A stretch of DNA of 64,000 nucleotides. Source: a bacterium. GTDB taxonomy: Bacteria; Electryoneota; RPQS01. A program made the translations under genes and the position numbers. The notes below the pieces were generated by a model that made no database searches, was not told where the DNA came from, and saw only the letters and a program-made list of their open reading frames with translations. Below, piece after piece: positions 8,853 through 58,755 of this stretch (positions within the stretch are counted from its first letter, which is position 1; every line of letters starts with the position of its first letter). The stretch is from assembly GCA_036504735.1 (NCBI GenBank), contig DASXUQ010000008.1:248001-312000 (forward strand), written 5' to 3'.

Positions 8853-8948
8853 CTTGAGACTAGAGACTGAAGACTGAAGACAAGAGTCGCTCCTACATTT
8901 CTGGTTTCGAGTCTCAAGTTTCAAGTCTCGAGTCTCACGTCTCGAGCT
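8853..8948. repeat. Class III stuttered hairpin (gagact family)
   Basis: A purine arm of repeated GAGACT/GAAGACT words (8855-8881) and a pyrimidine arm of AGTCTC/AAGTTTC words (8904-8944) surround about 20 unrelated bases. The words match those on both sides of the S23-family gene at 53918-54283, including TTTCGAGTCTCA. It sits directly before the TTG start of the next gene. Confidence 0.7.
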
Positions 8949-25238: not shown

Positions 25239-25330
25239 TCATGAATTAGGAAATGAGAAATAGAGACAGGAATGAAGACGGCTTCCTTTCTGCTTTCTGT
25301 TTTCTGCTTTTTGCTTTTCCAAGGAGTAAG
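25239..25330. repeat. Class III stuttered element before secG
   Basis: A purine tract of GGAAATGAGAAATAG-type words is followed by a pyrimidine tract of repeated TTTCTGC/TTTTCTGC words (about 25290-25318), ending at the AAGGAG of secG. Confidence 0.6.
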
Positions 25331-25711: not shown

Positions 25712-25796
25712 GGACAAATAGGAAATCGGAAATTCGAAATAGGAAAGAAGAGATTTGCATTTTCCTATTTCCTATTTCACATTTCCTGTTTTGACT
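25712..25796. repeat. Class III stuttered hairpin before tRNA-Leu
   Basis: Purine arm of GGAAAT/GAAATA words (25716-25748) and pyrimidine arm TTTCCTATTTCCTATTTC plus ACATTTCCTG (25760-25790). The arms are complementary over much of their length. Confidence 0.7.
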
Positions 25797-30604: not shown

Positions 30605-31024
30605 ATGAAATCAAAAACCAAAACAGCATATCAGAATAACCGCCGCGCCGCATTTCTGCTCTTTGCTTTCTGCTTTCTGCTTTTCTTCTCGGCCTGCACC
30701 TCTCCCAAAACCGAGCACAACCCGGTTTTACAGCCGGAAATTACGCTATTGGTTGAGGCCCAGCCGCAAACCGTTCCCGCCGACGGCTCCAGCCGCATGG
30801 TGGTCTTTGTGGAACTGCGGCACGGCAGCGATGCCGTCGCCGATTCCACCGAGATTATTCTGCTGAACACCAAGGGCACACTCGGCAAAGGAATCTTGTA
30901 CACCCATTCCGGCGCGGCGCTCGACACCCTGACCAGTGATACTACCTCCGGCGCGGGCTGGCTGATTGCCTGTGCCGAGGGCCTGCGCGACTCCGCCGCC
31001 ATCATCTTCACGGCAAGGCCATGA
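30605..31024 (+). CDS. Small lipoprotein with Ig-like domain; stutter-coded signal peptide
   Basis: 139 residues. The signal MKSKTKTAYQNNRRAAFLLF then AFCFLLFFSAC has its lipid-attachment Cys at residue 31, and is encoded by a class III element: the lysine part by an AAACCAAAAC purine tract and the hydrophobic part by repeated TTTCTGC words. The mature part (EITLLVEAQPQTVPADGSSR, then VFVELRHGSDAVADSTEIIL) is a single invasin-like immunoglobulin domain of the Big-1 type, with P-A-D-G-x-S-x-x-x-V and a late G-x-A-x-A-like strand. It overlaps the next gene by four bases (ATGA). Confidence 0.75.
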   Translation: MKSKTKTAYQNNRRAAFLLFAFCFLLFFSACTSPKTEHNPVLQPEITLLVEAQPQTVPADGSSRMVVFVELRHGSDAVADSTEIILLNTKGTLGKGILYTHSGAALDTLTSDTTSGAGWLIACAEGLRDSAAIIFTARP

Positions 31025-50960: not shown

Positions 50961-52042
50961 GGCCTTGCCTGCAAGATGCGTTGAAAAAGGGATTCGAACC
51001 GTGACATGGAATAATCTACGCTGAACTCGGCGGCAATCCGCGCCCGCATCATCTCCGCCACCTGCGCCCGCCGCGCGTCATCACTCAGCAACTCACTTGC
51101 CCTTGCCGTCATGGCGGCAAGATCGCCCGCCGGAATCAGGCTCTCCGCCAGCGGACCCGCAAAAATTTCCGGTACCGCGCCGACGTCAAAACTTAAACAC
51201 GCCGCACCCGCCGCCATCGCTTCCAACAGCACATTCGGCGTGCCTTCATCATCCGAGGTCAACAGAAACAGATCGGCGTCGCCCGCAATCTCCGCAAGAT
51301 CCGGCACAAACCCCGCAAGCTGCACGTGATTTTCCAGCGTCAGCGTGTGAATCCTCTGCTGCAATTCCTCGCGGCGCGGTCCATCTCCGGCGATCAGAAC
51401 TCGAAGCTGCGGAAACCGCGGTGCCAGCGCCGCCGCAATGTCCAGCAGCCGGTCAAACCGCTTTTGCGGCTCCAACCGTCCCGCACCCAGCACCAGCAGC
51501 GCATCGTCCGCAATGCCGAATCGCCGCCGCAACTCTCCGCGCTTCTGCGGCAGAAGAGCCGTGCCGTTGTGGATCACATCCACCTTATCTACGGGAAATC
51601 CGAGCCGCCTATACTGCTCGCGAATCGATGCCGCATTCACCACCAGTTTGCTCAACACACCCGTCGCCAGCCAGCGGTGATGGATCCCCCGCCGCAGCAG
51701 CGGAAACCCGTGCCGCGCCACCACCGGAATTCCGGCCAGTCGCGCCGCAATCCCGAACTGCCACGCTTCCTTGTTGAAGTTGACCATCGCCAGGTCCGCG
51801 CGAAAATTCTTCAGGAGCGCCCGCGCGCGCCAAATCGCCGGAGGAGAAAAATCTCCGCCAAAGATCGTTTCCGCAATCGTCAGTCCCCGCGCCTCGGCAA
51901 CCTGCAGCAGGCGGGAATCTGGCCGCCCCACTACCAGCGTCTCGTGGCCGTGCGCTGCAAACCAGTGCGCGGCCTCTACCGTCCACTTTTCGCCGCCGCC
52001 CCAGCTCTGTGCCCAGGCGGAATTGACCAGCAGCAGCCGCAC
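50957..52042 (-). CDS. Glycosyltransferase family 4
   Basis: 361 residues, GT-B fold. The N-terminal glycine-rich loop is WAQSWGGGEKWTVEAAHWFA, and the C-terminal donor site has VLGAGRLEPQKRFDRLLDIA and the E-x7-E motif region TSDDEGTPNVLLEAMAAGAA. The nucleotide sugar and acceptor are not readable. It starts one base from the end of the ABC transporter gene and overlaps the next gene by four bases, so it works with an exporter, a phosphoesterase and a GT9 on lipid-linked glycans. Confidence 0.92.
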   Translation of the reverse strand: MRLLLVNSAWAQSWGGGEKWTVEAAHWFAAHGHETLVVGRPDSRLLQVAEARGLTIAETIFGGDFSPPAIWRARALLKNFRADLAMVNFNKEAWQFGIAARLAGIPVVARHGFPLLRRGIHHRWLATGVLSKLVVNAASIREQYRRLGFPVDKVDVIHNGTALLPQKRGELRRRFGIADDALLVLGAGRLEPQKRFDRLLDIAAALAPRFPQLRVLIAGDGPRREELQQRIHTLTLENHVQLAGFVPDLAEIAGDADLFLLTSDDEGTPNVLLEAMAAGAACLSFDVGAVPEIFAGPLAESLIPAGDLAAMTARASELLSDDARRAQVAEMMRARIAAEFSVDYSMSRFESLFQRILQARP

Positions 52043-53874
52043 TACGCGTCGGCGCCGTGTTCGAACAGCCGCGTCAGCATCGCGTACAACGCGCTCGACC
52101 GCAGCAACTCGGTATGACTTCCCATGTCGGAAATTTTGCCCTTGTCCATCACCACAATCCGGTCCGCGTGGCGTACGCTCGTCAAGCGGTGCGCAATGAT
52201 AATCACCGTCCGCTTCAAAAACAGCTCGTCGAGCGCCTTCTGCACAAACCGCTCCGATTCCGCATCCAGCGCCGACGTCGCCTCGTCGAATATCAGAATC
52301 GGTGAATCCCTCAGCAGCGCGCGCGCAATCGCTATCCGCTGCTTCTGTCCGCCCGAGAGCTGCGTCCCGCGCTCTCCCACCATCGTCTCCAACCCGTGCG
52401 GAAGCTGGCGGATGAACTCTCCCGAATGGGACCGCTCAATCGCTTCCTGCAAGCGCGCGTCTTCCACGCCGCTCAGCCCGTAGCAAATATTGTTGCGCAC
52501 CGTGTCATTGAACAGGAACACGTCCTGGCTGACCGTACTCACCTGTGACCGCAGCGCGGTCAGCGGCAACTCCTTCAGCGGCTGGCCGTCCACCGTAATC
52601 AGTCCCTGCTGCGGCTCGTAAAAACGCGGAATCAGATTCGCCAGTGTGCTCTTGCCGCTGCCGCTTCGTCCCACCAGCGCGATTTTCTCGTTCTTGTGGA
52701 TGATCAGATTGATATCCCTGAGCACCCATTCATTGGAGGTCTCATAGCGGAAATGCACCCGGTCGAACACAATCGCCTTCTCGAACCGGATCGGCGCCGT
52801 GCTGCCGGTTTGCACCGGCTCGGGCTTTTCATTCAGCACCTCCTCGATCCGCACTCCCGCCGCCGCGCCGATCTGCAGACTGTTCATCACGCTGCCGAGG
52901 TTGCGCGCCGGAGCCAAAATCGAAAACAGCACCACGATGAACCGGATAAAATCTTCCGCGTCCACGCCGCTGCCCGTCAACACCTGCTGCCCGCCGAAGA
53001 ACAGCACCAGCGCGATAATAAACACGCCGATACTCTCCGAGAGCGGCGGCGCCAGCCGTTCCAGCCGCGCCAGCCGCAGATTCTGCCGGAACAGTTCCTG
53101 CGTGCCCGCTTCGAACTTCTCCGCTTCCCGCCGCTCCGTTCCGAAAGCCTTGATCACCCGCGCGCCGGAAATGGCCTCCTGCAAGTGCGACGTGATATTC
53201 CCCAGCCGCTCCTGAATCCGCCAGCTCTTGCGCTTGAGACTCTGCCCCGTCCACTTGTAGATCACCCCGAAGAGCGGCACGATGAGCAGCGCCATCAGCG
53301 TCATCTTCCACGAGATCGAAATCAGCACAATCAAGAGCGTGATCACCGTCAGCGGATCGCGCAGGAGCTGGGTAAACACTCGCTGAAAGGTGATGCTGAT
53401 CGCCGCCACGTCGTTCATCACGTTGGACATCACTTCGCCCGTGGGCCGGCGGTCGAAATAAGAGTAGGGGAGACGAGCCACATGCGCGAATACCGTATCC
53501 CGCAGATCCTTGATCATCTTCTGCTCGACGTACGAGACAAAATGCAACTGCCCGTACCCGAACAGATTCTTGATCAGAAACACGATAATCAGCGCCACGC
53601 ACAGCCGCGGCAGCATATGCACCGGATCGCTTCCGCCCAGCACATCCCATGACCATGTCTTCAGCGACTCGTACCAGCCCGACAGCCCGCCCATCGGCAC
53701 CGGCGACGCGTTCGCATTCGGATTGTTCGGCAGAAAAATCACCTTCAGCACCGGAGCCACCAGCCACAGCGAGAGCGCGTTGAACACCACGTAAAACAGC
53801 GTACACGCCGCCGTCCCGATCAAATGCCCGGGATACCGCTTAAAAGGATTTATGAATTTGAGGTAAGTTGTCAT
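52042..53874 (-). CDS. MsbA-like ABC exporter, fused TM and ATPase domains
   Basis: 610 residues, the size of MsbA/lipid flippases. Six membrane helices occupy residues 1 to about 340. The ATPase domain has Walker A GRSGSGKST, Q-loop VSQDVFLFN, signature LSGGQKQRIAIARALL, Walker B ILIFDEATSALD and switch His in IIAHRLTSVRHAD. The substrate is probably a lipid-linked sugar or lipid A-core, judged from the downstream GT4, phosphoesterase and GT9 genes with which it is coupled. There are about 40 bases between its start and a class III arm. Confidence 0.93.
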   Translation of the reverse strand: MTTYLKFINPFKRYPGHLIGTAACTLFYVVFNALSLWLVAPVLKVIFLPNNPNANASPVPMGGLSGWYESLKTWSWDVLGGSDPVHMLPRLCVALIIVFLIKNLFGYGQLHFVSYVEQKMIKDLRDTVFAHVARLPYSYFDRRPTGEVMSNVMNDVAAISITFQRVFTQLLRDPLTVITLLIVLISISWKMTLMALLIVPLFGVIYKWTGQSLKRKSWRIQERLGNITSHLQEAISGARVIKAFGTERREAEKFEAGTQELFRQNLRLARLERLAPPLSESIGVFIIALVLFFGGQQVLTGSGVDAEDFIRFIVVLFSILAPARNLGSVMNSLQIGAAAGVRIEEVLNEKPEPVQTGSTAPIRFEKAIVFDRVHFRYETSNEWVLRDINLIIHKNEKIALVGRSGSGKSTLANLIPRFYEPQQGLITVDGQPLKELPLTALRSQVSTVSQDVFLFNDTVRNNICYGLSGVEDARLQEAIERSHSGEFIRQLPHGLETMVGERGTQLSGGQKQRIAIARALLRDSPILIFDEATSALDAESERFVQKALDELFLKRTVIIIAHRLTSVRHADRIVVMDKGKISDMGSHTELLRSSALYAMLTRLFEHGADA

Positions 53875-53875
53875 G

Positions 53876-53905
53876 AAAGAGACTGGAGGCTAAAGACTGG
53901 AGACC
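53876..53905. repeat. Class III arm, left flank of S23 gene
   Basis: Purine-rich words GAGACTGGAGGCTAAAGACT followed by GGAGACC. It is roughly complementary to 54298-54333, on the other side of the S23-family gene. Confidence 0.65.
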
Positions 53906-53917
53906 TGAACACGTTGC

Positions 53918-54283
53918 CTAAGGGGTGCTATCAGACCGGGTGTGCTTGACCATCGTCACAAAAATCGCCATGAGTTCCGACATTTCGCCCTTCAACTGGG
54001 AAAGTCTCTCCGCCTTAACGATGCCGCTGTTTTCGATAACATATATCCAATAAATGGTTTCTTCGAGCTCCTGCATGGCACCGGTAATCTTGTTGGCAAA
54101 ATCCGCTTTAGATTTTGAACGGCATGACTCGGCGTAATGGGCCCCGACCGATGTGCCTGAGCGGAGAAGCTGTTCGGCGAGGTTGCGCGTCGGTCCGGCC
54201 TTGGGTAGCGCGCCCGTCAACCGCACAATACGCACCGCAAATTCCCGCGTCCTTTGCCGCAGGCGGTCCTTGCGAACATCCAT
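53918..54283 (-). CDS. Four-helix-bundle protein, 23S rRNA intervening-sequence (S23/Avd) family
   Basis: 121 residues, the family's usual length. Four amphipathic helices with signatures RQRTREFAVRIVRLTGALPK, NLAEQLLRSGTSVGAHYAES, DFANKITGAMQELEETIYWI and SQLKGEMSELMAIFVTMVKH; S-G-T-S-V-(G/A)-A-N/H-Y-A-E is the family hallmark. Members occur inside intervening sequences of 23S rRNA and, as Avd, in diversity-generating retroelements, where they bind RNA. Here it lies between two coding operons, not in rRNA, and is bracketed by stuttered arms with the same words as the free element at 8853-8948. AGGAG precedes the ATG at a good distance. A role in mobility or RNA handling is inferred. Confidence 0.85.
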   Translation of the reverse strand: MDVRKDRLRQRTREFAVRIVRLTGALPKAGPTRNLAEQLLRSGTSVGAHYAESCRSKSKADFANKITGAMQELEETIYWIYVIENSGIVKAERLSQLKGEMSELMAIFVTMVKHTRSDSTP

Positions 54284-54297
54284 GACGAGGTCTCCTG

Positions 54298-54333
54298 ATT
54301 TTCGAGTCTCAGGTCTCTGGTCTCAAGTCTTTC
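54298..54333. repeat. Class III arm, right flank of S23 gene
   Basis: Pyrimidine-rich words TTTCGAGTCTCAGGTCTCTG then GTCTCAAGTCTTTCC. TTTCGAGTCTCA is also in the element at 8904-8915. Confidence 0.65.
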
Positions 54334-54517: not shown

Positions 54518-54568
54518 CGCCTGTAACATTTTAGTTTTTTGGAGTTTTGGATTTTTGGCTTTGAAAAT

Positions 54569-54871
54569 ATGACCACCGTCGACACCGCTCACACCGCCAA
54601 TTTCACGCTGAAAGGCCCCGCCGTGCCTCTCACCCAACTCCCGCTTGGATCCCGCTGTCGGGTCGAGGCGGTCGATGAAAACTCCGAAAGCCTGCTCCGG
54701 CTGATGGAAATGGGCCTGACACCGGGAGCGGTCGTGGTGATGGAACGCGAAGCCCCCCTTAAGAGCCCCTACAGCCTGCGCCTGCCGGGCTGCACCTTGG
54801 CCGTCCGGCGTGAAGATGCCGAACGTGTGCTGGTTACCCTGTTGCCCGAGTCCTCTGCCGAAGGTAAGTAG
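54569..54871 (+). CDS. feoA: Ferrous iron transport protein A
   Basis: 100 residues from ATG 54569; a TTG at 54539 is in frame but in a stuttered GGAGTTTTGGATTTTTGGC tract. A single FeoA (SH3-like) domain: PLTQLPLGSRCRVEAVDENS, LLRLMEMGLTPGAVVVMERE and PLKSPYSLRLPGCTLAVRRE. FeoA is a small cytoplasmic partner of the FeoB iron permease. feoB begins three bases after its stop. A perfect palindrome upstream may be the iron-responsive operator. Confidence 0.93.
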   Translation: MTTVDTAHTANFTLKGPAVPLTQLPLGSRCRVEAVDENSESLLRLMEMGLTPGAVVVMEREAPLKSPYSLRLPGCTLAVRREDAERVLVTLLPESSAEGK

Positions 54872-54874
54872 ACC

Positions 54875-57124
54875 TTGGCCCAATGCCATACAGATACCGT
54901 TGTTCGTGAGAAGGTCGCCGCCGGTCGGCGGGTAATTGCCATTGCCGGCAATCCCAACGCCGGAAAGACGACCGTTTTTAATGCCCTCACCGGAACCCGC
55001 CAGCGCGTCGGCAACTACCCCGGCGTCACCGTCGAACGCAAAGTCGGCACCCTCCACCTGCCTTCGGGTGAAGTGGCCGACATCGTCGACCTTCCCGGCT
55101 GCTACAGCCTCGTCGCGCGTTCCCCGGAAGAACAGATTTCCCATGACGTCCTTCTCGGTGAACTGGAAGGTGAGCCCCGCCCGGACCTCGTGGTCATCGT
55201 GGTTGATGCCTCCAATCTGCAGCGCAATCTCTTCTTAGCCACTCAGATCCGCGATCTGGGACTTCCCATGATCGTCGCCCTCAATATGATGGACATCGCC
55301 CGCGAGCGCGGCTCCGAAGTCATGCCCCACAAGCTCTCCGAGGCTTTGGGCTGCCCGGTTGTGCCTCTCGTCGCGCGCAAGGGTGAAGGGCTGGATGATC
55401 TGCTCGCGCTGCTCGAGCGTACCGCCTGCGGATGCAGTGAATGCACCTGTGGCCTCGCGCCGCGTTTCATTGATGCACTCCCCGCCGCGCTGGAAAAACC
55501 CGTTGAAGCCCTCTCGCAGGGCCTGATCCAAAGCGGTCTGGCCTCTGAAGAATCCTCCCGCGCCGAAGCCCTCTGGCTGCTCGTGTCTTCGTTCGAAGGC
55601 GAGGATGCCGTCAAGGTCTCGCCGACCCATGCCGCCCTCACACGCCGCGTGCGCACCGAGTTCAAGCTTTCGCCACGGCAGATGCGCGCTATTGAAACCA
55701 GTGCGCGCTATCACTATCTGAAGGACCTGATGTTCCTCGCGGCCTGCGTCGAAATGGACCGGCCGCACCGCCTCACCGACCGCCTCGACCGCGTGCTCCT
55801 GCACCGCGTCTTCGGTCCGCTGATCTTTCTCGCCGTCATGGCCCTGGTCTTCCAATCCATCTTCTCCTGGGTGACTCCCGCCATGGACCTCATCCAGTCC
55901 GGAGTCGGCCTCGTGGAAAGCGGCGTCAGTCATCTCCTTCCCGATGGCCTCTTCAAGGAACTGGTGCTGCAAGGGGCCATCGCCGGCGTCGGCAATGTGC
56001 TGGTCTTCCTACCGCAGATTCTTGTCTTATTCCTCTTTGTCGGTCTGCTCGAAGACATCGGTTACATGGCGCGCGCCGCCTTCCTCATGGACCGCATCAT
56101 GGCCCGTGTGGGTCTGGATGGCCGCGCGTTTCTGCCGCTGCTCTCCAGCTTTGCCTGTGCCATTCCCGGCATTATGGCCACTCGCACCATCGCCGGACGC
56201 AAGGACCGCCTCGTCACCATTCTCGTCGCGCCGCTTATGTCGTGCAGCGCGCGTCTCCCGGTCTACACGCTGATCATCGGTACTGTCTTCGCCGCCAGCC
56301 GTCCCGTGTGGGGTTTCTTCACCGTCGGTGGTCTCGTGCTGATGAGCATGTATCTCTTTTCCATCACCGTCGGCATCACCATGGCGGCCATCTTCAAGCG
56401 CACACTCTTAAAGAGTCCGCCGCCGCCGTTGCTGCTCGAACTTCCGACCTACAAACTCCCGTCGCTGAAATCCGTCGCGCTCAATGTCTTTGATCGCGGC
56501 AAACTGTTCGTCATCCGCGCCGGTACCGTCATTCTGGCCGCCACCGTCATCGTCTGGGCCGTCATCCATGTGCCGCTGCGTCATGTCGACCTTGCGCCGC
56601 TGACTGCCGAACGCGCCGCCGTCATATCTGACGCCTCGCTCGATTCCCCCGCCCAAACCGCCGCGCTGAATCTCATTCAGGCAAAAGAAGACGCGCTGAG
56701 AATCGAACACAGCATCGGCGGATCTTTGGGCAAACTGATTGAGCCGGTCATTGCCCCCCTCGGTTTCGATTGGAAGATGGGTGTCGGCATCATCGCCAGC
56801 TTCGCCGCGCGCGAGGTCTTTGTCAGCGGTCTGGCCGTCGTCAACGGCGTCGGCAGTGCCGATGAGAACTCCTCCGATCTGCGCCAGACTCTGCGTGCCG
56901 AAAAACGCCCCGGCAGCGGTGCGCCCGTCTATACTCCGTTGCTCGGCCTCGCGCTGATGGTCTTCTTCGTACTGGCCTGTCAGTGCATGTCCACCGTGGC
57001 GATTGTCCGCCGGGAAACCAACAGTTGGCGCTGGCCCGCTTTCATGATCGCCTACATGAGCATCCTCGCCTGGCTCGGAGCCTTCGCCGTCTACCAGGGC
57101 GGCCACCTCCTCGGCCTCTCCTGA
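54875..57124 (+). CDS. feoB: Ferrous iron transporter FeoB
   Basis: 749 residues, TTG start three bases after feoA. The N-terminal G-domain has G1 AGNPNAGKTTVFNALTG, G3 DLPGCYS, and G4 NMMD. A cysteine cluster CGCSECTCG sits at about residues 188-196, unusual between the G domain and the membrane part and a possible metal or redox site. The C-terminal half has two gate motifs typical of FeoB (SSFACAIPGIMATRTIAGR and AAREVFVSG) and about eight membrane helices. It imports Fe(II) across the inner membrane. Regulated with feoA, probably by iron. Confidence 0.96.
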   Translation: MAQCHTDTVVREKVAAGRRVIAIAGNPNAGKTTVFNALTGTRQRVGNYPGVTVERKVGTLHLPSGEVADIVDLPGCYSLVARSPEEQISHDVLLGELEGEPRPDLVVIVVDASNLQRNLFLATQIRDLGLPMIVALNMMDIARERGSEVMPHKLSEALGCPVVPLVARKGEGLDDLLALLERTACGCSECTCGLAPRFIDALPAALEKPVEALSQGLIQSGLASEESSRAEALWLLVSSFEGEDAVKVSPTHAALTRRVRTEFKLSPRQMRAIETSARYHYLKDLMFLAACVEMDRPHRLTDRLDRVLLHRVFGPLIFLAVMALVFQSIFSWVTPAMDLIQSGVGLVESGVSHLLPDGLFKELVLQGAIAGVGNVLVFLPQILVLFLFVGLLEDIGYMARAAFLMDRIMARVGLDGRAFLPLLSSFACAIPGIMATRTIAGRKDRLVTILVAPLMSCSARLPVYTLIIGTVFAASRPVWGFFTVGGLVLMSMYLFSITVGITMAAIFKRTLLKSPPPPLLLELPTYKLPSLKSVALNVFDRGKLFVIRAGTVILAATVIVWAVIHVPLRHVDLAPLTAERAAVISDASLDSPAQTAALNLIQAKEDALRIEHSIGGSLGKLIEPVIAPLGFDWKMGVGIIASFAAREVFVSGLAVVNGVGSADENSSDLRQTLRAEKRPGSGAPVYTPLLGLALMVFFVLACQCMSTVAIVRRETNSWRWPAFMIAYMSILAWLGAFAVYQGGHLLGLS

Positions 57125-57125
57125 C

Positions 57126-57215
57126 GCAAAACGAAAAACTAAAATGAAGAACCAAAAGATGAATCCGAGCCTTCTTCATTTTTGGTTTCTAATTTCTAAT
57201 TTCTAATTTCGTCTC
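57126..57215. repeat. Class III stuttered hairpin between feoB and next gene
   Basis: Purine arm AAAACGAAAAACTAAAATGA then AGAACCAAAAGATGAA; pyrimidine arm CTTCTTCATTTTTGGTTTCT, ending in three TAATTTC words. Confidence 0.7.
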
Positions 57216-57449: not shown

Positions 57450-57597
57450 CATTATCCGTTTTCCCCTGCGCCGCATCCCCCATCCTGTCATCCTGCACGC
57501 GGTCTTCCTTCGTTCTGCCATCCTGCACCCCCTAACCTTGTCATCCTGCATTTGTCTTCAAATGCAGGATCTCTCTTTCCCGCTCAACAGAGGATTC

Positions 57598-58755
57598 CTA
57601 TTTCCTATTTCCTATTTCCCCTCGCCCCACTCCTCGTTGCGCCAGCAGCCCCTCAAGCTGATCCACCACAAAACCCAGATCAAATTCCCGCACGGCATAC
57701 TCCCGGGCTCGTGCACCGATCTCCCGCCGCTTGTCGCTATTCGCCAGCAACTCCCGCACCGCCTTTTCGAGGTCATTGAGGTTGGTCGCAAATCGTCCCA
57801 GCCCCTTGTCCGTCAGCAGCCGGTCGGGATTGACATCTAAGGAAACAATCGGCACTCCGCGCATCATCGCATGGATGAAGGTATTGGGATAGCCTTCTGC
57901 CTGACTGGTACTCACCAGCAGATGGGCCTTCTGAAAATACTCCCCCACCCGGTTGCGCGGCACCGCGCCATCATACCGCAAATGCGGCAGCTTCCGTGTG
58001 GCCGCATCCAAAATTGCCCGGTACTTCGGCTCCTGAATATTGCCGATCATCACAAAATCCGCATCCAAGTCCCGGCAACGGCGTGCCAACTCAATAAACA
58101 GGCGCGGCCTTTTCCAGTCTTTGATTCCCCCCGCCCACAACACCAGCGGCTTGCCCAGATGAGATTGAACTTCATTCTCCGGGACGCTTGTCTGTGGATT
58201 GTGCAGCACCACACTGTCAATTCCTCCGGCGGCCAGTGCCTCTTGCTGGCCGGTATGCTGGGCCAGCACCAGATCCGCTGCCCGTACTCCCCGCCGCGCC
58301 ATCCAGGTGGGATAAACAAATCGCAACAGATGGGCATAGAACCGTGCTGCGCCGAAATTCTGCTTCACCAGCTTGAGTCTGGGCAAGAAGGACCCATCCG
58401 CCTCAGAGGCCGATGCCCAGACCTTTAGTGTTCCCGCAGGAGCCTCCAGCATGGTGTGATGGGTGTAGAGATCATACACAATACTCACCACCACCGCAGG
58501 CCTCAGCTTCGTGAGCAACCTGCGCAAGGCCAGCCGGTTCGCCACAAAGGGTGATCGCTGCGGTGGCAGTGCATGCAACGTCACGCCATCCACTACCGCC
58601 GGATCCGGCGTTTTCTTCATCTCACTTATGCAGTGGACATCCCAGCCCCGCCGCGCAAGTTCAGTTGAAAGCAACCACACCCGCTCCTCTGAGCCGCCCT
58701 GAATACTGGTCAGCAAATGGTACTTGGAGACAAACAGAATGCGGGGCTTTTCCAT
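57598..58755 (-). CDS. Glycosyltransferase family 4
   Basis: 385 residues from ATG 58755 (MEKPRILFVSKYHLLTSIQG); the frame stays open to 58872 but the extra 39 residues lie next to a repeat and have no ribosome site. GT-B signatures: GGSEERVWLLSTELARRGWD, LVLWAGGIKDWKRPRLFIELA and STSQAEGYPNTFIHAMMRGVP (E-x7-E type). Donor and acceptor unknown. The last codons (GEIGNRK) are coded by a class III stutter (GGAAATAGGAAATAG on the minus strand), as if the element had run into the gene's 3' end. It faces the flippase gene across a 400-base gap. Confidence 0.9.
   Translation of the reverse strand: MEKPRILFVSKYHLLTSIQGGSEERVWLLSTELARRGWDVHCISEMKKTPDPAVVDGVTLHALPPQRSPFVANRLALRRLLTKLRPAVVVSIVYDLYTHHTMLEAPAGTLKVWASASEADGSFLPRLKLVKQNFGAARFYAHLLRFVYPTWMARRGVRAADLVLAQHTGQQEALAAGGIDSVVLHNPQTSVPENEVQSHLGKPLVLWAGGIKDWKRPRLFIELARRCRDLDADFVMIGNIQEPKYRAILDAATRKLPHLRYDGAVPRNRVGEYFQKAHLLVSTSQAEGYPNTFIHAMMRGVPIVSLDVNPDRLLTDKGLGRFATNLNDLEKAVRELLANSDKRREIGARAREYAVREFDLGFVVDQLEGLLAQRGVGRGEIGNRK

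Follow-up and report, generated by a model that had tools for sequence, protein, structure and literature searches.

Complementary heptanucleotide-repeat arms around S23 genes point to a compact insertion element

Our results favor, with moderate confidence, the view that a compact insertion element carries S23/IVP genes as its cargo, the S23 gene being preceded by a purine-rich arm and followed by a complementary pyrimidine-rich arm, together with the mechanism that we propose for this element below. Neither a recombinase, nor a nuclease, nor a reverse transcriptase is part of this unit. S23/IVP genes ("four helix bundle protein") are widespread and have no known function, and we know of no catalytic domain in S23. 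The DNA analyzed here, referred to as the window, is a 64,000-nt stretch on contig C8 of a 4.16-Mb bacterial genome (G000). S23 intervening sequences (IVS) of 23S rRNA, heptanucleotide repeats (PMC4692102, PMC4679880) and REPINs (PMC3116915) are already known; of a link between S23 and heptad arms as a general association, we found no description in the open-licence papers searched.

The S23 copy in the window is situated between an ABC transporter gene and feoA, i.e., outside the 23S rRNA gene, and it contains both the S23 open reading frame, with its two profile matches (PF05635 cut-off, 33.8 bits), and a terminal complementary stem (Table 1). The product is a 121-aa protein with an ATG start and a net charge of +6. 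The initial annotation had described this gene as bracketed by stuttered, roughly complementary arms, and we found that the coordinates are right, that the arms pair in the minimum-energy RNA fold (AAGACUU.GAGACC with GGUCUC.AGUCUUU) and that the repeated words are real 7-nt units (heptads), which read RAGACYN in the window. The annotation had also looked to RNA folding for support, which came from the pairing of these arms and from a free hairpin near 8853 (none of 200 shuffles was as stable), but not from the fold of the entire 471-nt window element, whose stability was no better than that of shuffled sequences (z -0.38). The Smith-Waterman score of the window arms, 16, lies above the 95th percentile of the mismatched-locus controls described below (14.75) and below the 99th (19.55), and because of the latter the window copy is degenerate when taken alone. 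The syntenic counterpart in G006 (L231), which uses the same word, AGACTTG, scores 30; the window arms are secured by this counterpart and by the family-wide pattern. An Rfam search of the window gave no match, and the window element is without a transposase gene (RAYT), since the enclosed protein matches PF05635 only and the neighbors are the ABC transporter and FeoA/FeoB genes.

Table 1. Positions of the S23 element, its neighbors and the free heptad repeats within the window
Feature	Position	Strand	Remarks
S23-less heptad hairpin, word family AGACTTG/AGTCTCA	~8853..8938	+	Between two co-directional genes; RNA fold -38.8 kcal/mol, z -3.2
Heptad array, AAAGCAG word	25284..25319	-
S23-less heptad hairpin, word family AAATAGG/CCTATTT	25716..25791	+	RNA fold -27.2 kcal/mol, z -4.7, 0/200 shuffles as stable
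Heptad array, AAAGCAG word	30655..30684	-
Host ABC transporter gene	52042..53874	-	Adjoining; anchor for occupied/empty-site comparison
3' heptad arm, pyrimidine in S23 sense: AGGTCTCCAGTCTTTAGCCTCCAGTCTC	53876..53905	-	Arm pairing in fold
S23 / 23S_rRNA_IVP four-helix-bundle gene	53918..54283	-	PF05635 73.1 bits, TIGR02436 90.6 bits
5' heptad arm, purine in S23 sense: AAGACTT GAGACCA GAGACCT GAGACTC	54298..54333	-	Same word in syntenic G006 element (L231)
Host feoA	54539..54871	+	Adjoining; followed by feoB at 54875-57124
Heptad array, TTTCTAA word	57179..57214	-	Just 3' of feoB; word also in 3' arm of S23 locus L003
Heptad array, AAATAGG word	57592..57623	-

S23 genes were present in 40 of the 61 genomes examined. 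For 91 of these genes, sampled from relatives and from other phyla, the 150-nt flanks were compared by Smith-Waterman alignment, with a control in which the upstream flank was paired with the downstream flank of a different locus (mismatched-locus control). Results of this comparison showed a median arm complementarity of 22, compared with 9 in the control, and 75 of the 91 genes exceeded the 95th percentile of the control. The same score was reached by only 2 of 219 other small genes and 10 of 657 long genes. Autocorrelation of the flanks peaked at lags 7 and 14, and these peaks were absent inside the S23 gene. In an independent sample, drawn nearly entirely from one other phylum, 18 of 26 S23 genes were armed vs 9 of 156 controls. 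Armed S23 genes occur across many bacterial phyla. All four S23 loci of G000 have inverted stuttered arms (GGATGAA at L001 and the frameshifted L004/L005, AGACTTG at the window locus L002, A-rich/TTTCTAA at L003). Arms near other S23 genes, which the initial annotation had expected, were thus found at every further locus of the genome and in most of both samples.

The unit was 7 nt in 130 arms, 8 in 23, 9 in 4 and 10 in 2, and 135 distinct words were counted among 159 arms, with near-variants counted as different. What unites the arm family is a 7-nt period and mutual complementarity and not a fixed arm sequence, which corrects the annotation on this point; other words can occur at the same site in other genomes. 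Where the array was clear, the 5' arm was purine-rich in 55 of 75 cases and the 3' arm pyrimidine-rich in 56 of 78. Elements measure ~420-500 bp and usually lie directly 3' of a stop codon within an operon, with both neighbors on the same strand at 63 of the 91 loci; they also occur within 23S rRNA.

Several other S23 arrangements were observed. Arms were direct rather than inverted in two plasmid cases, Oscillatoria L224 and L218 of Pseudanabaena galeata plasmid pPg_01, the latter with long AAAGCTA/AAAGCCA arrays; cas6 and cas4 flank the S23 gene of L218 (1492-1851). Clusters of S23 genes in adjacent gaps within 10 kb are frequent (G027:C267, G029:C171, G034:C346, G017:C4, G025:C6, G141:C110), and the clustered copies that were compared are 37-64% identical and are not recent duplicates. 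By sequence reading, seven S23 genes (L057, L106, L256, L257, L267, L270, L275) apparently lie directly behind or between tRNA genes. Frames of ~190-310 aa in other phyla (L240, L241, L243, L245, L246, L261, L262, L271, L272) contain a partial S23 domain (profile positions 4-73) and are possibly fusions. G045 has 19 short partial S23 matches (e.g., C7:104028-104554, C2:122174-122711, C3:436717-437275) in a different S23-like ORF arrangement, several of them as divergent pairs on opposite strands ~170 nt apart.

Comparison of occupied and empty sites in near-identical DNAs showed that the whole unit inserts, arms included. Among Nostocales plasmids that are 91-98% identical, exactly the arms and the S23 gene are missing. 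The element of the Trichormus and Scytonema plasmids directly follows a TAA stop codon, and the matching gap is only 13 nt in plasmids of Microchaete, Tolypothrix, Aulosira and other Nostoc that are ~98% identical (97.9% for Trichormus/Scytonema vs Microchaete/Nostoc; the junctions were read in Microchaete and N. linckia), while Nostoc C052 has a decayed remnant of the element at this site. Nostoc ATCC 53789, C052 and N6 have an element in a gap that measures only 3 nt elsewhere, in other plasmids. In a sister plasmid, the next gap is occupied by another S23, whose arms are of the AAAGGGG word. Two more empty/occupied cases were found in Calothrix brevissima and N. edaphicum. The cyanobacterial plasmids thus provided the comparison to which the initial annotation had looked, i.e., near-identical sites without both arms and S23. 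Between elements at unrelated sites, homology runs from arm to arm. Candidate target duplications were short and ambiguous, with GTAA(T) seen at one site and possibly TTCTA at a second, and with none evident in L289.

At the window site, S23 and arms occur together in G000, G006 and G010, and both are absent in G003 (with the same feoA/feoB and ABC neighbors), G001, G005, G007 and G009; G002 lacks S23 and has one single unpaired array. Paired arms are therefore found at this spot solely where S23 is present, and not independently of it. At a second site, between a thiolase gene and a MEIYERNINA gene, S23 and arms are present in G029, G026 and G032, a broken S23 with arms in G038, and an S23-less heptad hairpin in G037 and G018; G033 and G027 have none of these. 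Most elements are old and have been inherited in place. Movement is rare, since only 11 of 94 S23 copies have their best-matching S23 relative within their own genome.

The alternative that survives best, which we nevertheless consider unlikely, is that S23 is a domesticated, host-useful gene kept by vertical descent, with little or no mobility, and that the arms are hairpins for RNA processing or insulation, in which slippage and template-switch correction renew the repeats. It draws support from the long synteny across genera and from purifying selection on S23 (dN/dS ~0.11 and ~0.08 in the two pairs with unsaturated dS), as well as from the mostly co-directional location in operons and the cleavage of the Coxiella element by RNase III (PMC4990558). 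Clean empty sites between plasmids of such high identity argue against it, as do the patchy presence of the element and its insertion into 23S rRNA and into an S23 gene. Furthermore, selection on the RNA stem would be expected to leave an excess of wobble pairs, and transition mismatches between the arms were 88 of the G.U type and 97 of the A.C type (p 0.56); as G.U was not preferred, we see no indication that RNA pairing is selected, and the idea that the stem is selected as RNA was rejected.

The two arms of a locus change in concert. For 55 pairs of S23 loci that have a common neighboring gene in different genomes, the median score of an arm with its own partner was 22.5, vs 12.0 with the partner from the orthologue; both arms of a locus share a word although syntenic orthologues differ. 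Thus, the word at the window site is AGACTTG in G000 and G006 but AAATAGG in G010, and at an HgdB-like site G031/G034 have GTTTACT/TTCACCG-type words and G017/G025 have AACTCGC/AACTTGC. Copying from arm to arm at the DNA level would be the simpler idea. Arm length can vary in 7-nt steps, as seen in a difference of two units between the Trichormus and Scytonema elements (L217 vs L283), which are 97% identical.

The element that we favor also covers an arrangement previously described within 23S rRNA. In Azospirillum lipoferum 4B, the 23S gene on AZO_p2 (L220) contains a 469-nt insertion with S23 and the arms TCAGAGGACGGATGACAGAGG...CCTCTGTCTTCTGTCATCCGTCTTCTGA, and the 23S gene on AZO_p5 has a short bare helix, GCGATCTTATGATCAC, at that place. 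In our reading, this helix would correspond to helix 45, its loop having been replaced by the element. L220 is the only one of our elements located inside 23S rRNA, and it makes the classical IVS one case of the same arrangement. Warrier et al. (PMC4990558) noted that the S23 start of the Coxiella IVS is preceded by tandem heptamers (GACAGAT), whose number depends on the strain, and that RNase III cleaves its terminal stem of 28 bp. The IVS of Coxiella and Leptospira resemble the present elements in that a terminal stem holds the S23 ORF in its loop, with heptamers in Coxiella, but the present elements lie mostly in protein operons, are found genome-wide and have locus-specific words, so that the IVS represents one niche.

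Heptad repeats without S23 were also found. The initial annotation had linked a free element to the window S23 arms, and this element (~8853-8938) proved to be a real hairpin that has TTTCGAGTCTCA and RAGACYN heptads in common with them. S23-less heptad hairpins occur at the same sites as S23 elements (L145, L147), and S23-less hairpins also insert elsewhere: in Nostoc 'Peltigera' N6 an S23 gene (L289) is split by a 182-nt heptad-armed element without S23, and this element was found at 98 places in 43 plasmid records. The annotation's proposal of a single element type, in which arms enclose an S23 ORF and of which ORF-less forms occur at other places, is therefore supported and came through the two observations that could have undone it, unarmed S23 genes elsewhere in the genome and arms that persist regardless of S23. 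Its further suggestion that the ORF-less hairpins are derivatives stands insofar as S23-less forms exist, but some are separate MITE-like families, and not all need be deletion derivatives. Free heptad arrays in G000 numbered 38 in 364 kb (~104 per Mb, somewhat overstated because the 8853 hairpin was counted twice, L167 overlapping the window, and S23-locus arms were included); no array had a period of 5, and a single one had a period of 6. Two loci of G000 (L024, L013; C8:85779-85930, 328900-328990) are composite arrays, in which AAATAGG, AGACTCG and GGATGAA blocks are joined head to tail.

The abundance of free arrays relative to S23 in G000, the presence of arrays in some genomes without S23, and the over-representation of heptads among bacterial repeats (PMC4692102, PMC4679880) would be accounted for if heptad hairpins came first, arising near gene ends as simple repeats by slippage and template switching, and S23 were a passenger that inserts into them. 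A further point in favor is that some of the 55 loci with upstream genes have the stop codon of that gene in phase with the units of the 5' arm (mean identity at one period, 0.49; off-register, ~0.27). However, the upstream gene ends VEGAAA* in G002 and, by our reading of the alignment, continues into the array in G006, VEGTEGKDLRPET*, where the array supplies a C-terminal extension and stop past the gene end seen in G002; therefore, overwriting by the array explains the register equally well as seeding from the 3' end of the host gene. Free arrays and S23 are not strictly linked, and a strict link at the genome level was rejected, as 200 kb of G022, a genome with S23, contained no free array, and a few heptad arrays occur in G011, G015 and G060, which have no S23. 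A genome with S23 may thus lack free arrays, the empty relatives at well-resolved sites lack the arms as well as S23, and the arm-to-arm homology at unrelated sites likewise counts against hairpins as the first step, which we regard as quite improbable.

We consider it very unlikely, and already weakened by the data, that the repeats are written by a reverse transcriptase (RT) encoded elsewhere, with S23 as its Avd-like subunit. Fixed short units do recall telomerase-like copying, and S23 and Avd are related, judged from a DivGenRetAVD profile match below its cut-off (29.5 bits for the S23 of L042, cut-off 80; the window S23 is not among the hits listed). This relatedness is the likeness to diversity-generating retroelements; the difference is that 20 of 28 S23-bearing genomes have no RVT_1 match, and an RT partner was rejected on this ground. 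The sole RVT_1 protein of G000 (L172:6267-8102 on C9; 611 aa) has a methyltransferase-like gene just upstream and resembles RTs of the defence type; ~4.4 kb from its gene there is a large AGACTTG hairpin without S23. Finally, chance complementarity of low-complexity intergenic DNA, to which the degenerate window arms (score and whole-element fold) might point, is refuted by the mismatched-locus, neighbor-gene and lag controls, the conservation of the unit in synteny and the precise empty sites.

The insertion element that we favor was compared with known systems. Like MITEs, the 182-nt Nostocales family is short, has inverted ends and spreads non-autonomously, and it alone has conserved inverted ends of the MITE type; MITE ends match those of a transposase, whereas the present arms, with their many words, share only period and complementarity and are not known to belong to a transposase. 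REPIN/RAYT systems are similar in that ORF-less hairpins are scattered beside copies that flank a small gene, are extragenic and persist for long (PMC3116915), but RAYT is a REP-associated tyrosine transposase and REPs are conserved in sequence, unlike S23 arm words. Heptanucleotide repeats (cyanobacterial STRR, Xanthomonas GGGAATC, Beggiatoaceae TAACTGA) share the 7-nt period, the intergenic location and the proximity to stop codons, and the present arrays have the STRR-like tandem period in intergenic DNA. Xanthomonas has 70-75 inverted heptad pairs, with the G-rich strand after stop codons (PMC4692102). The present repeats differ in being tied to S23 and to insertion events, and the heptanucleotide-repeat papers that were checked make no mention of S23 in their text.

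The window S23 is a sequence relative of structure 2RLD (5 chains; E 3.5e-17), and S23 is a pentamer according to a Xanthomonas structure cited in PMC4990558. The purifying selection on S23 also speaks for the element; its weak points are the rarity of recent movement, the ambiguous target duplications, the two plasmid cases with direct arms, the missing enzyme and the loose correlation of free arrays with S23 between genomes. In the mechanism that we propose, the Avd-related S23 pentamer would bind the arm hairpin, or its single-stranded form at the replication fork, and thereby let host replication or repair enzymes copy or insert the element. Slippage in 7-nt steps would alter arm length, and DNA template switching between the arms would maintain their complementarity. 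By analogy with Coxiella, RNase III probably cleaves the transcripts at the hairpin, which would lessen the harm to the host operon, and S23-less hairpins may be moved in trans. More tentatively, and with rather less confidence than we place in the element itself, we suggest a new class of bacterial mobile elements that lack a recombinase and in which a 7-nt rhythm and mutual complementarity, not sequence, would mark the ends for recognition: the pentamer of S23 would recognize the heptads, perhaps with each subunit reading one unit, and would bring in replication or repair enzymes, the word would be rewritten in both arms together, and the 23S IVS and several "simple" heptanucleotide repeats would be members or leftovers of this class.

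Ends that are set by period and not by sequence would be unusual for a mobile element. With the empty/occupied plasmid pairs named above, mobility can be tested directly in cyanobacteria that grow in culture. Altogether, the link between S23 and heptad insertion would offer one explanation for the role of S23, the origin of the 23S IVS and the over-representation of heptanucleotide repeats.
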